This document shows positions 8,750-17,944 of a stretch of DNA of 64,000 nt, one piece after another. This DNA is from an uncultured Alphaproteobacteria bacterium (GTDB taxonomy: Bacteria; Pseudomonadota; Alphaproteobacteria; RF32; CAG-239). Numbering within the stretch: position 1 is the first letter of the stretch; each line of letters opens with the position of its first letter. The notes beneath the pieces are model-generated. The model searched no databases. It had not been told where the DNA came from and saw only the letters and a program-made list of their open reading frames with translations. A program made the position numbers and the translations under genes. The DNA lies in assembly GCA_944390455.1 (NCBI GenBank), contig CALXPU010000001.1:136620-200619 (forward strand), read 5' to 3'.

Positions 8750-11359
8750 CTAGATCACTTTTTTCTTTTCAGGAACAAAGTTTTGGTCCAGCATAATGTT
8801 TTCAACAGCTAACTCTTCTGAAGGTTGGTATGCAATACCACTTTCTATAATGTTTCCAACGTTTAATAGGTCAGAATCGTTAGATTTTAAGCAAGAAATT
8901 GTTTTTTCATCTGCTTTGATTACCAGACTTAAAACAGGGTTCTTTTGAGATTTATTCTCAATGGTCTTTTGCTTACGAATTTCTGTAGAAACGGTAGAAA
9001 TTGTGTTGTACAGAAGAGCGTTTTCTGCACTAATAGAATCTAAGCAACTTAATGATGTCCAAAGTTCTTTGTGAACAGAAATGTCTGTTGCTTTTTTCCA
9101 TGGACGTGCTTGATATACTTCTTCAGTAATGAATGGGCAGAATGGAGCTAACAATTTGATAAAGGTATCAAGTGATAGCTTTAAGGTTGCGATTGCTGAA
9201 GAGTTATCTTCGGAGTATGCACGTTTTTTTACAATTTCAACATAGTTATCGCAGAAATCCCAGAAACGTGTTTCTATTGCATCAAGAGCTAATGAATAGT
9301 CGTAGTTTTCAAAGCTTTGTTTTGCAGATTTTACAGTATCTGCCAGTTTTTTAATCCAAGATTTATCTAAGCCATTGGTTATATCGTTCAGATAATCGGC
9401 AGAGGTAGAATTGCCTACAATCATGAATACGAATTTACTTGCATTGTAAATTTTTACAACCAACTTACGACCTTGTTGCATCATCTTTTCTTCAAATGCA
9501 GTATCTGCTCCGAGTTTTGCTTTGGCTGCCCAATAACGAACGGCATCTGCAGAGTGATTTTCAATCAAATGCATCGGAGTTACAACGTTTCCTTTTGATT
9601 TACTCATCTTTTTACGGTCTGGATCAAGGATAAAACCACTGATGAGTGTTTTGTACCAAGGAATTGTGTTTTCGTGCATTAAGCTTTTGGCAATTGTGTA
9701 GAAAGCCCAAGTACGAATAATGTCGTGAGCTTGCGGACGAATATCAAACGGCATAGATAAGTTTGATTTATCTTTTGCCATAGCCATTGCGATTTGTGGT
9801 GTTAAAGAAGATGTTGCCCATGTATCCATAACATCTGGGTCTCCGGCAAATCCGTTTGGTTGGTTTCTTTGAGCTTCTGTATAGCCGTTTGGAGTATCTG
9901 CCATTGGGTCTATAGGAAGTTGGTCTTTTTCTGGCAAAATAACGCTATTATAATCAATATTTCCGTTAGCATCTACTTTGTACCAAACAGGGAATGGAAC
10001 GCCGAAATAGCGTTGACGGCTAATGCACCAATCTTGGTTTAATCCCTCGGTCCATGTTTCATAACGATGTTGCATATATGCTGGTAACCATTCAATTTTG
10101 CGTCCAGCGGAGAGCATTTCTTGTTTCATATCCATCAAGTTGATAAACCATTGACGAGATGGTACGAATTCAAGCGGTAAATTACCTTTTTCATAGAATT
10201 TTACCGGGTGCATAATTTTTCTTGGTTCGCCGATTAAGTAGCCTTGTTCTTTTAGCATTTCAGCTACTTTCTTTTTAGCGATATGCGCAGGCAAGCCAAT
10301 TAATTGATTAAAGTTCTGTTGAGCTTTTTCTTTATTAAGCGTAGTGAAAGGACCTTCGCCGTAGGTGATGTTCATGATTTTGCCATCAAGACCGATGATT
10401 TGCTTAATCGGTAGACCGGATTTTTTCCACCAAGCAACGTCGGCAGCATCACCAAAGGTGCAGACCATCATAATACCGGTTCCTTTGTCTTTTTCAGCAT
10501 GTTCGGATGCAACAATCGGAACAGGAATATCAAACAACGGAACAATGGCTGTTTTGCCAAATAAATGTTTGTAACGTTCGTCATCAGGATGTGCAACGAT
10601 TGCCAAGCAAGCTGCTAAAAATTCCGGACGAGTGGTTGCGATAGTAAAAGTTTCGTCGCTATCTTTAACACTAAAGCGAATATCGTGGAAGTAACCCTCC
10701 ATTTCTTTATCTTCAACTTCGGCTTGAGAAACAGCGGATTTAAATGTAACATCCCACATAATCGGAGCTTCTACTGCTACGACTTTGCCTTTTTTGTATA
10801 AATCCAAGAAGGATGCTTGAGAGATTTTTATGGATGTCGGACTGATGGTGGAATAAGTTAAATTCCAATCATAAGAGTGTCCGATACGACGGAAAACGTT
10901 TTCAAAGATTTTTTCATCTTCTGCGGTTAAGGTTTCGCAGGCTTCAATAAAGTTTTTACGAGAAATTTCTTTGCGTTCGTCTTTGCTGTTTTCAATATGA
11001 ACGGGTTTGAAATTCGGGTCATAAGCAACTTTGGGGTTGCAAGCGATGTTATAATAGTTTTGAACACGGCGTTCTGTCGGTAAGCCGTTGTCGTCCCAAC
11101 CGATTGGGTAGAACACGGATTTTCCCTGCATGCGTTGATATCTGGCAATAATATCGGTTTGAGTATAGCTGAAAATGTGACCGATATGCAAAGAGCCGGA
11201 GACGGTTGGCGGAGGGGTGTCTATCACAAAACTGTTGTCACGGCTTTGTGTGGCATCATATTTATAAACCTCGTTTGCGCTCCAATATGCGTCGCAACGT
11301 TTTTCTATTTCTTCGGCATTAAATTGACTATCTAATCCTTGTTCTTCTTTATAAGACAT
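8750..11359 (-). CDS. valS: valyl-tRNA synthetase (short, Rickettsia/archaeal-like type)
   Basis: 869-residue class I synthetase. HIGH region 'DTPPPTVSGSLHIGHIFSYT' near residue 45, KMSKS loop DPDRKKMSKSKGN near 560, an editing-domain stretch with 'FTIATTRPEFLAACLAIVAH' and 'GTGIMMVCTFGDAADVAWWK'. The phrases FYPIGWDDNGLPTERRVQN and FGDAADVAWWK match the archaeal-like ValRS I recall from Rickettsia rather than the E. coli type, and the protein ends without the usual long coiled-coil arm. ATG 11359 is chosen over an upstream in-frame TTG because GGAG lies 11 bases before it. Monocistronic. Confidence 0.95.
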   Translation of the reverse strand: MSYKEEQGLDSQFNAEEIEKRCDAYWSANEVYKYDATQSRDNSFVIDTPPPTVSGSLHIGHIFSYTQTDIIARYQRMQGKSVFYPIGWDDNGLPTERRVQNYYNIACNPKVAYDPNFKPVHIENSKDERKEISRKNFIEACETLTAEDEKIFENVFRRIGHSYDWNLTYSTISPTSIKISQASFLDLYKKGKVVAVEAPIMWDVTFKSAVSQAEVEDKEMEGYFHDIRFSVKDSDETFTIATTRPEFLAACLAIVAHPDDERYKHLFGKTAIVPLFDIPVPIVASEHAEKDKGTGIMMVCTFGDAADVAWWKKSGLPIKQIIGLDGKIMNITYGEGPFTTLNKEKAQQNFNQLIGLPAHIAKKKVAEMLKEQGYLIGEPRKIMHPVKFYEKGNLPLEFVPSRQWFINLMDMKQEMLSAGRKIEWLPAYMQHRYETWTEGLNQDWCISRQRYFGVPFPVWYKVDANGNIDYNSVILPEKDQLPIDPMADTPNGYTEAQRNQPNGFAGDPDVMDTWATSSLTPQIAMAMAKDKSNLSMPFDIRPQAHDIIRTWAFYTIAKSLMHENTIPWYKTLISGFILDPDRKKMSKSKGNVVTPMHLIENHSADAVRYWAAKAKLGADTAFEEKMMQQGRKLVVKIYNASKFVFMIVGNSTSADYLNDITNGLDKSWIKKLADTVKSAKQSFENYDYSLALDAIETRFWDFCDNYVEIVKKRAYSEDNSSAIATLKLSLDTFIKLLAPFCPFITEEVYQARPWKKATDISVHKELWTSLSCLDSISAENALLYNTISTVSTEIRKQKTIENKSQKNPVLSLVIKADEKTISCLKSNDSDLLNVGNIIESGIAYQPSEELAVENIMLDQNFVPEKKKVI

Positions 11360-11443
11360 TGTTTCGTTTACTCCAATAAAAATCAAACTGTTGCAGATTT
11401 TAGCAAGAGCTTATTTAAAAGTAAAGGATTTAAATGGTATTGA

Positions 11444-11811
11444 TTGAGCGGTTTAAGCGGAAAAAGGCGATTTTTTGTGATTGTGGGGTAAGGGGAATTT
11501 TGAGGTTTAAAGTCTATTTGTTTAAAAAAGCGTAGTCAAATTGACGGAATCTACAAAAAGATATTGAAAACAATAGAAAAAGATGCTATAGTTAGAATGT
11601 AAAAATATATTTAGGTGTTTCAATTATTTTAGAGTTTTATTATGCAAGTGGTCTTTCGGGATTATTTACTGATAACTTCTCTGAAAGAATTTGAAATGCC
11701 TTTTTTTGTGAAATTTATTAAATTTTTTTCTATATGAGACATTTTGTTTTTTTGAAATCCATTATCTTTATGATGATGGTCGCATTTGTAGCTATGAGCG
11801 CAAATGCGCAG
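11444..11811 (+). repeat. direct repeat copy 1: promoter, leader and signal-peptide module
   Basis: About 368 bases that recur at 12670-13033. The unit begins near TTGAGCG and runs through an A/T-rich upstream part, the promoter, a ~135-base untranslated leader, the ATG and the signal-peptide codons up to GCGCAG. The best-conserved stretches include the first 47 coding bases, which are identical. The coding sequences diverge sharply just after the signal peptide. Together with 11360-11443, which shows nothing else, this accounts for the 374-base gap between valS and the first beta-barrel gene. Confidence 0.9.
11564..11592 (+). promoter_or_regulatory. sigma70-like promoter in repeat copy 1
   Basis: TTGAAA (11564-11569), 17-base spacer, TATAGT (11587-11592). 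The predicted start leaves a leader of about 135 bases before the ATG at 11734, without a Shine-Dalgarno sequence. In the leader TCTTTC (from about 11653) can pair with GAAAGA about 30 bases later. Confidence 0.65.
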
Positions 11812-12588
11812 AGAAGAATTAACGGAGTTAATCTGTCTAAAAAGCAGGTTGCAGAGCTCCTAGTAAAAAACCCCACCGACACAGTGACTATGTCTCGTGT
11901 CGAGATAAAGAAAGAAAATAATATGGTTTTTGAAGAAATACGCTCTGCGTATATTTTCAATAAGAAAATCGTATCACGCCGAGATACGATCATTTCTGCC
12001 ATAGCTATGTCAGATGATATTCAATTCTCTGATAAGGAGGCTGTCCTTCGTGGAGAATTGGATATGAGAAATCCCGAGCACCAGCGAGCAGATGGTTCTA
12101 ATATCCATCATGTCAATGTAACTTTGCTTGGTGGGGCGAACTACGTTGATAATACCATTAACGCAGGGGCAACCTTGCGTGTTGGATATGAAACCTGTCA
12201 CTTCTTGTTTGAAGTGGAAGGATCATATTCCACCATGGCATACACTTCAGCCTCCATGGTATCCGGCAAATACGATACTTTTATCGCAGCCGGTAATTTG
12301 GGATGGAAATTCTGGCAGAACAGAGATTATCGCTCTTATTTGGCGATACTCGGTACTGCTGGATATGCTAAGCAGAAGTCAGACTCCCGCGACGCGGAAT
12401 TTTTCTCTGAAAACTATGGGCTTATGCTCGGCGCATTTGCCCGTGGCGCTTGGGGATTCACAAAACGGTTCCAGCTGATTGGCGAGGCTGGGTACCGCAT
12501 TCTGCCGCAGGTGTTCCATGACAAAGGAACACAATTGTTCTCCAACGGAGGACCATTTGTGAACCTTGGCGTGAACATGTCTTTCTAA
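11734..12588 (+). CDS. outer-membrane beta-barrel protein, paralog 1
   Basis: 284 residues: signal peptide MRHFVFLKSIIFMMMVAFVA..SANAQ (cleavage near residue 26), an N-terminal charged region of about 80 residues, then alternating hydrophobic strands with many Gly and aromatic residues and a terminal ..NLGVNMSF, as expected for an outer-membrane barrel whose last strand ends in Phe. No enzyme motif is seen. It shares promoter, leader and signal peptide with the gene at 12956, and the mature N-termini are related (INGVNLSKKQ../INGINTRDAK..). Base composition is richer in G+C than its neighbours and no Shine-Dalgarno precedes the ATG, suggesting transfer. Closed by a terminator at 12609. Family unknown. 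Confidence 0.8.
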   Translation: MRHFVFLKSIIFMMMVAFVAMSANAQRRINGVNLSKKQVAELLVKNPTDTVTMSRVEIKKENNMVFEEIRSAYIFNKKIVSRRDTIISAIAMSDDIQFSDKEAVLRGELDMRNPEHQRADGSNIHHVNVTLLGGANYVDNTINAGATLRVGYETCHFLFEVEGSYSTMAYTSASMVSGKYDTFIAAGNLGWKFWQNRDYRSYLAILGTAGYAKQKSDSRDAEFFSENYGLMLGAFARGAWGFTKRFQLIGEAGYRILPQVFHDKGTQLFSNGGPFVNLGVNMSF

Positions 12589-12608
12589 GCGTAGAAAGAC
12601 CACATTAT

Positions 12609-12656
12609 GAAACAGCAGATTTTAGGGGTTCCCTAAAGTTTGCTGTTTCTTTTTGT
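12609..12656 (+). terminator. intrinsic terminator after beta-barrel paralog 1
   Basis: Nested perfect arms GAAACAGCA..TGCTGTTTC outside and TTTAGGG-gtt-CCCTAAA inside, followed by TTTTTGTTTT. An unusually long and strong hairpin. Confidence 0.92.
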
Positions 12657-12669
12657 TTTAAAAGGATTT

Positions 12670-13033
12670 TTGAGCGTTTTAAATGGAAAAGGCGATTTTT
12701 GAGATTTTAGAGAGAGGGAGATTTTGAGTTTTAAAGTCTATTTGTTTAAAAAAGCGGAGTCAAATTGACGGAATCTACAAAAAGATATTGAAAACAATAG
12801 AAAAAGATGCTATAGTTAGAATGTAAAATTATTTATTAGGTATTTCAATTATTCTAGATTTTTATTATGTGGTGGTCTTTCGGGATTATTTACTGATAAC
12901 TTCTCTGGAAGAATTTGAAATGCCTTTTTTGTGAAACAATTTAATTTTTTTCTATATGAGACATTTTGTTTTTTTGAAATCCATTATCTTTATGATGATG
13001 GTGTCATTTGCTGCTGTAAGCGCAAATGCGCAG
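12670..13033 (+). repeat. direct repeat copy 2: promoter, leader and signal-peptide module
   Basis: Second copy of the 11444-11811 module, about 1.2 kb downstream in the same orientation. It contains the same promoter, leader and signal-peptide codons, with scattered substitutions and small indels. It fills the 367-base gap between the two paralogs apart from the preceding terminator. Confidence 0.9.
12788..12816 (+). promoter_or_regulatory. sigma70-like promoter in repeat copy 2
   Basis: TTGAAA (12788-12793), 17-base spacer, TATAGT (12811-12816), identical to copy 1. In the leader the right arm of the small stem reads GGAAGA instead of GAAAGA, which still pairs with TCTTTC through a G-U pair. 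Confidence 0.65.
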
Positions 13034-13975
13034 GAGGTTATTAACGGTATTAATACACGCGACGCGAAGGCGTGTATGGAATACCTTGTAAAGAATTCAA
13101 AGGACACTATCGCGTCAGTGTCTTCATTTGTAAGCGGCGAAGATACAGTCGTCGTGAGACGTTCGGTTTTCTTGGCGGGCGAAAAGCTGATGGCTCGTCA
13201 GGATACAACTATTTACCGCCCGACAGTGAAAACTGTTACCGTGGTGAATAAGGAAAAGGCTGAAAATTTGTACGAGGCAAGCGTTAATACTCGCTTTGCC
13301 GAGAAGGCGTTTGATGACGCTGCAAGAGACACATACTACGCTTATTCTGATAGCGTAGCCGGTGTTTCTGAGGGCGACCTCAATGCCGGTAAGGTGGTTC
13401 TTAGATCTGCTAATAAGTACGGTTGGGGGATAAACCTCTATGCCGGTTGGCAGTTCGCAGAACATGTAAACAGCCCCGTCATCGGAGCAGGATTGGAGTA
13501 CAGCCGCTCTTGGTGGGCTGCTATGCTGAGCGGTGAGGCCGGATACTCTAAGTATACATCAAACGCAGTTAATGCGGGCGATAAGTACTGGAGTTTTAGA
13601 ACTGAGGCTTTAGCCGCCTTGCAACCATTCAGATTTGATGCTTACAATCAGAACCGTCTTTTCCTCTTCGGAGGTTTGGGTTTTGAATGGTATAGTACCG
13701 AATCAAAACCTTTCACCGATGAGGCGGGAAACGAATACGAATTCAAGTCATGGGGTAACTTTTTGTACCCAACGGCTGGAATTCGTTTTGAACACCGGTT
13801 CTTTTCCACTGGAAACAGTTTATTTGTTTCCGCACAGTGGAGACAGCTTTCTGGAGTAATCCAGAATGCTAGCACAGAGCGATATAATGCTCTGATGCTG
13901 TCGGTAGGCTTTAACTTTGGATTTTTCCGTAACACAACGGGGATGTCTAAGTCCGATGTGAAGGCGTTATATTGA
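12956..13975 (+). CDS. outer-membrane beta-barrel protein, paralog 2
   Basis: 339 residues with nearly the same signal peptide as paralog 1 (MRHFVFLKSIIFMMMVSFAA..SANAQ). The mature part starts with a ~130-residue region rich in charged residues, Val and Asp, then a barrel-like C-terminal half beginning near 'YGWGINLYAGWQF' with repeated amphipathic strands (for example 'LFVSAQWRQLSGV' and 'LMLSVGFNFGFF'). An extra ~15-residue tail follows the last strand. G+C is high for the window: line 13501-13560 has 34 G+C in 60, against 23 in 60 at 25981-26040. No Shine-Dalgarno. Function unknown; a surface structure or adhesin-like role is only a guess. Confidence 0.78.
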   Translation: MRHFVFLKSIIFMMMVSFAAVSANAQEVINGINTRDAKACMEYLVKNSKDTIASVSSFVSGEDTVVVRRSVFLAGEKLMARQDTTIYRPTVKTVTVVNKEKAENLYEASVNTRFAEKAFDDAARDTYYAYSDSVAGVSEGDLNAGKVVLRSANKYGWGINLYAGWQFAEHVNSPVIGAGLEYSRSWWAAMLSGEAGYSKYTSNAVNAGDKYWSFRTEALAALQPFRFDAYNQNRLFLFGGLGFEWYSTESKPFTDEAGNEYEFKSWGNFLYPTAGIRFEHRFFSTGNSLFVSAQWRQLSGVIQNASTERYNALMLSVGFNFGFFRNTTGMSKSDVKALY

Positions 13976-13995
13976 TGACTGATGCGAACACTATT

Positions 13996-14043
13996 AAGCA
14001 GGGAAAGATGAGGGCGTATGCTCTCGCTTTCTCTGCTTTTTTT
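13996..14043 (+). terminator. intrinsic terminator after beta-barrel paralog 2
   Basis: AAGCAG.GAAAG..GAG.GC-gtat-GC.CTC..CTTTC.CTGCTT followed by a long T run; a strong, slightly interrupted hairpin. Confidence 0.9.
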
Positions 14044-14097
14044 ATGGCTAAAAAGGTGATTTTTGAGTGTTTTTAGGATTATAGCGCGCGATTTTTG

Positions 14098-14126
14098 TTG
14101 TTTTAGACGAAAAAATATGGTATAAT
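14098..14126 (+). promoter_or_regulatory. sigma70-like promoter for beta-barrel gene 3
   Basis: TTGTTT (14098-14103), 17-base spacer, consensus TATAAT (14121-14126), about 28 bases before the ATG at 14154. The leader is short, unlike those of the two paralogs. Confidence 0.7.
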
Positions 14127-14153
14127 CTGACCTAGAACAAATATTATTTAGAT

Positions 14154-14762
14154 ATGAGAAAAAAATTTTTTGCAGTTATGGCAGCGATAGTTGTCATCTG
14201 CTCGGTATTTAGTAGTGCAAGTGCTCAGTGTTTCTATCGTTATGACTACGGTTATGGCGGTGGTTTATTTGGAGATGGCGCAAACTTCTATGCCGGATTT
14301 GGTGCAGGCGCCGCATTAGTTAATGATATGGCTTCTCCAACGTATAGCGTGCGTTTGGGGGTGGAGGCAGGACTCTTTGTGGCAGAACTGGAGGGAAGCT
14401 ATCTTTCTATTAATTCCGTCTACGATGACGGATTTGAGCCTGAAACCAATACTCTTTCAACTATGACGGTGGGGGTAAACGTTGGGCTTAATATTTTAGC
14501 TTCCTCCGTGGGACGCTTGTCATTAATGCTCCACACAGGGTATGCACTGCAAGAGGAATGGTATCATGGTGGGTATTATGACTATTATGGTCATGCCTAC
14601 TATGGTCGTTATTACATCGGAGCAGGTCTGAACGGTTCCGTTAATCTGACGAATCGCTTTGCTCTCTTTGCAGAGGCAAGGTATCAGTCAATCCCGATTG
14701 ACGGATGCGGAAAGACTAAGTGGGGAGGTATCCTCTCCGGTGGACTCCGAATTTATTTTTAA
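14154..14762 (+). CDS. outer-membrane beta-barrel protein, Gly/Tyr-rich
   Basis: 202 residues. Signal peptide MRKKFFAVMAAIVVICSV..SASAQ (cleavage near residue 24), then a Tyr/Gly-rich opening (YRYDYGYGGG) and regularly spaced strands such as 'ANFYAGFGAGAALV', 'VRLGVEAGLFVAELEGSYL', 'TVGVNVGLNIL' and a final strand ending GGLRIYF with terminal Phe. This is the pattern of a small eight-stranded porin-like barrel. It has its own promoter and terminator. The SASAQ cleavage site, raised G+C and absent Shine-Dalgarno resemble the two genes before it. No specific function can be given. Confidence 0.78.
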   Translation: MRKKFFAVMAAIVVICSVFSSASAQCFYRYDYGYGGGLFGDGANFYAGFGAGAALVNDMASPTYSVRLGVEAGLFVAELEGSYLSINSVYDDGFEPETNTLSTMTVGVNVGLNILASSVGRLSLMLHTGYALQEEWYHGGYYDYYGHAYYGRYYIGAGLNGSVNLTNRFALFAEARYQSIPIDGCGKTKWGGILSGGLRIYF

Positions 14763-16261: not shown

Positions 16262-17944
16262 TTATTCTTTGCTCTTCAAAGCTTCGCCTAAAGCGTCACC
16301 TAAAGTAGAACCAGAAGAATTTGAAGCAGAATATTCTTCAATTGCTTTCTTTTCTTCTTCAATCTCATAAGCTTTTACAGAAACGCCTAATTTTGCGTTT
16401 TTGCGATCAACAGAAGTTAATTTTGCTTCCAAAACGTCACCTTCTTTGTAGCTTAATGGATCGTTGTTTTCTTTAGACAAGTCTGCTTTTTTGATTGTTG
16501 CAGCAATGCCTTGAACAGTTACTTGAACACCTTTTTCATCAGCGCCTGTTACGATTGCTTTAACAATGTCACCTTTTTTCAAAGATTCTAATGTCATTGC
16601 AACGTTGTTTTCAGACATTTGTTTAATGCCCAAGCTGATGCGTTCTTTTTCTACATCAACGTCAATGATTTTTGCTTCAATTGTTTGACCTTTGGTGTAA
16701 TCTTTAACAGCTTCTTCTCCAGATTTTTCCCAAGAAATGTCAGACAAGTGAATCATACCATCGATTTCGTCAGACAAACCAATGAACAAACCGAATTCGG
16801 TGATGTTTTTGATTTTGCCTTCAATAACAGATCCTAATGGGTGTTCTTCAATGTATGCAGCCCATGGATTTGGTGTGCATTGTTTGATACCCAAGCTGAT
16901 ACGACGTTTTTCTGGATCAACTTCAAGAACTTTAACTTCAACTTCTTGAGATGTTGAAACGATTTTACCCGGATGTACGTTCTTGCGTGTCCAGCTCATT
17001 TCTGATACGTGAACAAGACCTTCGATACCATCTTCGAGTTCAATGAATGCGCCGTAATCGGTGATGTTGGTTACTTTTCCTTTGTAGATTTCGCCTACTT
17101 TGTACTTGTCTGCAACAGCTTGCCATGGGTCATTTTCTAATTGTTTCATACCAAGGCTGATACGTTGTGTATCTTCATTGAATTTGATAACTTGTACTTT
17201 TACTGTTTGACCTAAAGAAAGTACTTCTGCAGGATGATTGATTCTCTTCCAAGAAATGTCGGTAACGTGTAATAAACCGTCAACACCGCCCAAATCAATG
17301 AATGCACCGTAATCTGTTAAGTTCTTAACGATACCTTCTAATACAGAGCCTTCTTTGATGTTGTCAATCAATTCAGCACGAGCAGATGCTCTGGTTTCTT
17401 CTAATACTACACGACGAGAAACAACGATGTTACCGCGTACTTTGTCCATCTTCAAGATTTGGAACGGTTGAGAGATACCCATTAAAGGTGTGATGTCTTT
17501 AATCGGGCGAATGTCAATTTGTGAACCAGGCAAGAAAGCAATTGCACCGTTTAAATCAACAGTGAAGCCGCCTTTAACGCGTCCGAAGATTACACCATTT
17601 ACTCTTTCGTTGTTGTTCATCATCTTTTCAAGGTCTTGCCATACTTCTTCACGGCGAGCCTTTTCACGTGATAATACGATGTTGCCGTCTTTGTCTTCGT
17701 ATCTGTCTACTAATACTTCTACAACGTCGCCAACTTTTAATTCGTCATTTCTTCCGAATTCGCGAAGCGGAATGCGGCCTTCTGATTTCAAACCTACATC
17801 AACAGTAGCGAAATCATCAGTTAAACGAATAATTGTTCCTTTCATAACTGTGCCAACGATGCCTTTGTTGCCGAATTGTTCGTTTAACAATTCTTCAAAA
17901 TTTTCAGTCATTTCAGGAATTTGAATTTCTGCAGTATTTGCCAT
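16262..17944 (-). CDS. rpsA: 30S ribosomal protein S1
   Basis: 560 residues with six S1 RNA-binding repeats; easily seen ones begin at GTVMKGTIIRLTDDFATVDV, 'GSVLEGIVKNLTDYGAFIDL', 'GEIYKGKVTNITDYGAFIEL' and 'GSVIEGKIKNITEFGLFIGL'. Length and repeat number match proteobacterial S1 (557 in E. coli), which recruits mRNA to the 30S subunit. No Shine-Dalgarno-like sequence precedes the ATG; instead the leader has hairpins. The usual neighbours cmk and ihfB are absent. Confidence 0.97.
   Translation of the reverse strand: MANTAEIQIPEMTENFEELLNEQFGNKGIVGTVMKGTIIRLTDDFATVDVGLKSEGRIPLREFGRNDELKVGDVVEVLVDRYEDKDGNIVLSREKARREEVWQDLEKMMNNNERVNGVIFGRVKGGFTVDLNGAIAFLPGSQIDIRPIKDITPLMGISQPFQILKMDKVRGNIVVSRRVVLEETRASARAELIDNIKEGSVLEGIVKNLTDYGAFIDLGGVDGLLHVTDISWKRINHPAEVLSLGQTVKVQVIKFNEDTQRISLGMKQLENDPWQAVADKYKVGEIYKGKVTNITDYGAFIELEDGIEGLVHVSEMSWTRKNVHPGKIVSTSQEVEVKVLEVDPEKRRISLGIKQCTPNPWAAYIEEHPLGSVIEGKIKNITEFGLFIGLSDEIDGMIHLSDISWEKSGEEAVKDYTKGQTIEAKIIDVDVEKERISLGIKQMSENNVAMTLESLKKGDIVKAIVTGADEKGVQVTVQGIAATIKKADLSKENNDPLSYKEGDVLEAKLTSVDRKNAKLGVSVKAYEIEEEKKAIEEYSASNSSGSTLGDALGEALKSKE

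Follow-up and report, generated by a model that had tools for sequence, protein, structure and literature searches.

Within a 64,000-nucleotide stretch of the genome of an uncultured Alphaproteobacteria bacterium (hereafter the window), two neighboring genes, A and B, open with nearly the same promoter, leader and signal-peptide codons and continue into clearly different predicted beta-barrel proteins. The initial annotation took this arrangement for a cassette system in which a common expression module is given to new surface proteins, and proposed that the direct repeats could recombine to delete or fuse genes. The locus raises the question of how the 5′ parts of two genes can stay alike while the proteins that they export differ.

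Architecture of the repeated modules

The coordinates and the length of about 365 bases initially given for the duplicated promoter-leader-signal module proved correct in direct-repeat and BLAST comparisons (E = 7.6e-136 for module A against module B). The two modules (Table 1), which sit 1.2 kb apart and each open a different eight-stranded barrel gene, are ~92–94% identical overall and 94% identical across 315 bases. Ungapped direct repeats were found at 11472–11608/12696–12832 (92%), 11648–11751/12872–12975 (80%, with an indel inside) and 11717–11832/12939–13054 (87%), and the gapped identities were 228/247 (92%) for the 250 bases upstream and 69/75 (92%) for the signal-peptide codons. The upstream element shared by both copies is a possible regulator site. 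Given the strong terminator behind gene A, the two genes appear to be transcribed separately. A genome-wide search for further copies of the module, as the initial annotation had proposed, returned only these two, with no third copy found in the 1.54-Mb draft source genome by either DNA search or leader RNA model search.

Table 1. Features of the barrel gene locus (positions in the window)
Feature	Position	Strand	Description
valS	8750–11386	−	flanks the barrel genes
Module A	11451–11811	+	upstream element, promoter, leader and signal-peptide codons of gene A; direct repeat of 12676–13033
Conserved upstream element	11506–11552	+	AAAGTCTATTTGTTTAAAAAA..GTCAAATTGAC; present in both copies, recognizable in most related species
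Promoter A	11564–11592	+	TTGAAA-17-TATAGT, sigma-70-type, extended −10; conserved across species
Leader RNA hairpin A	11613–11701	+	predicted; MFE −29 kcal/mol, z −5.3; covariation; followed by U run at 11702–11708
Gene A	11734–12588	+	ORF and predicted model; 284 aa, signal peptide (..SANAQ) and 8-stranded barrel
Terminator of gene A	12609–12649	+	3′ of gene A; 19-pair stem, T run
Module B	12676–13033	+	upstream element, promoter, leader and signal-peptide codons of gene B; direct repeat of module A
Promoter B	12788–12816	+	hexamers and 17-base spacer identical to promoter A
Leader RNA hairpin B	12838–12925	+	predicted; MFE −28.7 kcal/mol, z −5.2; covariation; followed by U run
Gene B	12956–13975	+	ORF and predicted model; 339 aa, signal peptide nearly as in A and a different 8-stranded barrel
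Gene C	14154–14762		third predicted barrel gene, behind B; 202 aa, without module
S1-domain ribosomal protein gene	16262–17944	−	opposite flank of the barrel genes

The neighbors of the locus (valS, the S1-domain ribosomal protein gene and carD) are chromosomal in type, and the interval between valS and the S1-domain protein gene holds three predicted barrel-type genes, A, B and C. Their GC content was 0.44–0.46, compared with about 0.36 for most genes of the window, and an S1-domain ribosomal protein gene lies near them. A Shine-Dalgarno-like motif, present in 35 of the 54 window genes, was absent at all three starts (11734, 12956 and 14154), and the approach to the start codons of A and B is A/U-rich.

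The AlphaFold models of A and B each contained eight strands, with a mean pLDDT of 76 and 62, respectively, and their nearest folds were NspA, OmpA and OmpX. Both products are therefore modelled, with moderate confidence, as eight-stranded outer-membrane barrels of the OmpA-TM/NspA/OmpX fold, and no Pfam or NCBIfam family passed for either of them. Their signal peptides end in -AQ and contain no lipobox cysteine. In the clade compared, the profiles of the mature parts of A and B aligned only over the first ~59 mature residues and the barrels were hardly related. The initial description of near-identical upstream and signal parts, each preceding a distinct and diverged beta-barrel, was thus borne out. 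Elsewhere in the source genome (G000:C11:46535–46975), another barrel protein of ~209 aa resembles A, with 31% identity over part of the sequence. Single related barrel genes also occur in other genera of the family (L131, L132 and L139), where they adjoin genes for ~800-aa lipoprotein-like proteins that by eye resemble Bacteroidota surface proteins.

Distribution of the gene pair across species

We compared 18 genomes, one per species, all of which were drafts and most or all of which were metagenome-assembled. Both genes were found in identical order and place in six of them (G007, G016, G005, G010, G014 and G013), and in G015 and G001 A and B were both in order on the contigs read. In G011, A was in place and B lay with its module on another contig at a different locus (L068, G011:C11); the two modules were 96% alike despite their separation, indicating that B moved recently or that copying can act between loci far apart. 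The mature parts grouped by paralogue and not by species, A matching A and B matching B. In profile comparisons, the distant A families matched with 99.5% probability and the distant B families with 83% over 260 columns, and the orthology of the G013 and G014 B genes to the other B genes was weak though full-length (23% identity).

Several candidate exceptions were rejected. An apparent third module copy in G010 (C8:1923) belonged to an unrelated DsbA-like protein, and a weak leader match on G014 C54 had no barrel gene nearby. The absence of the pair from G009 most likely reflects an assembly gap rather than a deletion, because the Smr and S1-domain protein genes are missing there too. A 24,556-aa open frame in G003 is most likely a run of N, as N makes up 12,000 bases of the 20 kb read.

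The contigs of about half of the genomes (9 of 18: G001, G002, G003, G004, G006, G008, G012, G015 and G017) terminated in the module or no more than a few hundred bases from it, for which near-identical repeats are the natural cause. A second module was found beside the Smr gene in G015 (99% over 283 bases), second copies were found in G012 (100% over 140 bases) and G017 (60 bases at 100%), and both contig ends in G004 shared ~75 identical bases by eye. Short-read assemblies thus break at the module and several genomes miss one of the two surface genes, so that our survey undercounts them.

Concerted evolution of the 5′ modules

Within single genomes, the 250 bases upstream of A and B were 91–99% identical in the eight species with full data other than G001 and 77% identical in G001, and the identity of the signal-peptide codons ranged from 66% (G016) and 73% (G007) up to 100% (G013 and G015). 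The 315-base module was 93–98% alike within G014, G013 and G011, compared with 67–78% between distant species, and the signal peptides were identical or near-identical within G013, G011, G015 and G014 but differed between species. In the module tree, A and B of the same species paired with support of at least 95/80 in G001, G011, G013 and G014, a single clade of A modules was rejected (AU p = 1.5e-42), and the tree needed seven changes of the A/B label, which is no better than shuffled labels. These comparisons argue for concerted evolution confined to the 5′ module, which resembles its paralogue within a genome more than its orthologues in other species.

The direction and limits of the exchange could be read from individual genes. 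The first 40 bases of the signal-peptide codons of gene A in the source genome (G000) were 100% identical to those of its own B and at most 57% identical to any A orthologue of the close clade, and the start of the mature part reverted to the orthologue (0.50 to its own B and 0.76 between A genes). The B signal peptides of G005 and G010 were of the A-like type. With A carrying the B type in one species and B the A-like type in two others, copying appears to have gone both ways. Homogenisation reaches from ~240–280 bases ahead of the start codon to the vicinity of the signal-peptide cleavage site, but in G007 and G016 the signal-peptide part was not homogenised (66–73%), so that the process is patchy. 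At the B position in G002 and G017 (L072 and L073), adjoining the downstream small-protein gene, there is a chimeric gene whose head is B-like (best match to B, 8e-9 and 3.5e-4) and whose barrel matches only A (down to 1e-53). The proposal that the repeats can recombine is supported, on an evolutionary time scale, by the concerted evolution of the modules and extends to fusion, as in this chimera, but not to deletion, since none by crossing-over between the repeats was seen in the genomes compared.

A predicted structured RNA in the leader

The leader of gene A spans ~135 nt between the predicted start (~11599) and the initiation codon, and both the A and B leaders are predicted to fold into one long interrupted stem of roughly 90 nt. 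Ten of the 12 leaders folded far better than shuffled sequences (z of −4.2 to −7.3), and those of G006 and G001B were not outstanding (z of about −1.4). Because a plain MAFFT alignment of the distant leaders was not structural, the distant ones were aligned with a model built on four close leaders. In this alignment, which is fitted to the model, 94% of pair cells were standard pairs compared with 45–54% when slid, and double-sided, compensatory changes were found in 17 of the 33 hairpin pairs. The distant leaders also reach a matching hairpin shape when folded on their own, and a covariance model built on G016 and G010 located the leaders of G014 and G011, and with a weak match that of G013, at the correct positions. 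Rfam leader families gave only chance-level matches across 11300–14300. By these predictions, the comparison of the A and B modules has exposed a new structured leader RNA that is conserved, covarying and undescribed. A conserved upstream ORF in the leader was also considered and rejected by eye, its frame being broken by indels between A and B.

We lean towards a role of the hairpin in mRNA stabilisation or translation control over one as an attenuator or as a target of a small RNA or protein. It is rather unlikely, at perhaps one chance in a few, that the hairpin is merely a DNA palindrome or leaky terminator that has no regulatory role and is carried along by conversion. A U run does follow it in most species and the loop-less matches of the leader model are ordinary terminator-like hairpins, but G013 and G014 keep the hairpin where the U run is absent, and the invariant G-U pairs and better scores on the sense strand fit an RNA.

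Explanations for the likeness of the modules

If a whole gene had recently undergone a simple tandem duplication and the mature parts had then diverged fast, this would account for there being two tandem copies only and for the homology of the first ~59 mature residues. The orthologues of A and B are, however, in order even in species whose modules are far diverged, and mature A and B differ far more from each other than A from A or B from B across species; this account, which the initial annotation had named as the one that would undo its proposal, is excluded by the species comparison in its simple form and we regard it as very improbable. We give as little credence to strong selection holding each module alike independently of recombination. 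Promoter and leader do have a function and contain conserved elements, but the modules change much between species and the changes, including silent and signal-peptide changes, are common to A and B of the same species; such lineage-specific shared changes need copying. The cassette system, in which one expression module would repeatedly capture new surface-protein genes, is somewhat less remote but still improbable. Different mature parts do stand behind a common module, B of G011 has moved elsewhere together with its module, and the chimera of G002 and G017 joins parts of both genes. The source genome nevertheless has two modules only, with no sign of more in the genus, draft gaps apart, and the mature parts everywhere belong to the same two families of orthologues, in order wherever the locus is assembled, which speaks against new surface proteins being added.

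Very probably, then, the tandem pair of barrel genes is old, and gene conversion, acting repeatedly and in either direction, has kept the 5′ modules of A and B alike up to the signal-peptide cleavage site or close to it, where the homology of A and B ends. The copying would proceed by RecA-type recombination between the direct repeats. Selection would retain both barrels and probably their shared control, and may thereby help to keep the modules alike, so that modules are homogenised while barrels diverge. Through the common module, transcription, mRNA stability or post-transcriptional control, and also export, would be matched between the two genes; its most likely role is to match the two surface barrels in export and in leader-controlled expression. 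A more specific reading, to which we give slightly less than an even chance, is that the leader RNA represents a new cis-acting family of an uncultured alphaproteobacterial genus, co-regulating the barrel pair and synchronised by conversion that does not extend beyond promoter, leader and signal peptide. Were it true, regulation and export would evolve as one shared part and the surface domains apart.

Comparison with known systems

The 5′ untranslated stem-loop of Escherichia coli ompA is an mRNA stabiliser. The leaders of A and B, as predicted, resemble it in being long structured 5′ leaders of barrel-protein mRNA, the ompA protein being an abundant one, with no sequence relation evident.

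The closest precedent for the module is the erp (ospE/ospF/elp) family of Borrelia burgdorferi, in which an ‘upstream homology box’ places a conserved promoter/operator and leader peptide before very different mature surface proteins, and whose genes recombine among themselves and are co-expressed (PMC10016077). A near-identical promoter, leader and signal peptide likewise precede divergent mature surface proteins here. The erp products are lipoproteins whose genes occupy an allelic site on several cp32 prophage plasmids (PMC10016077), whereas A and B are two chromosomal beta-barrel genes, usually in tandem, with an -AQ signal-peptide end and a structured leader RNA. In Helicobacter pylori, the outer-membrane paralogues babA/babB and homA/homB have one segment in concerted evolution and others distinct, and chimeras arise (PMC3960876). 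The A/B pair shares with them a segment more alike within than between genomes, as well as chimeras, but the bab and hom genes homogenise a 3′ coding segment and the A/B pair its promoter, leader and signal peptide. Silent-cassette antigenic variation, with one expressed locus and silent donors, does not fit: a promoter and an intact ORF are present at both modules, and there are no further copies. The locus is thus a variant of the Borrelia erp and H. pylori bab themes with a new leader RNA, and not a new category, and provides a sequence-clear case from an uncultured lineage in which recombination appears to homogenise two surface genes solely in their regulatory and export part.
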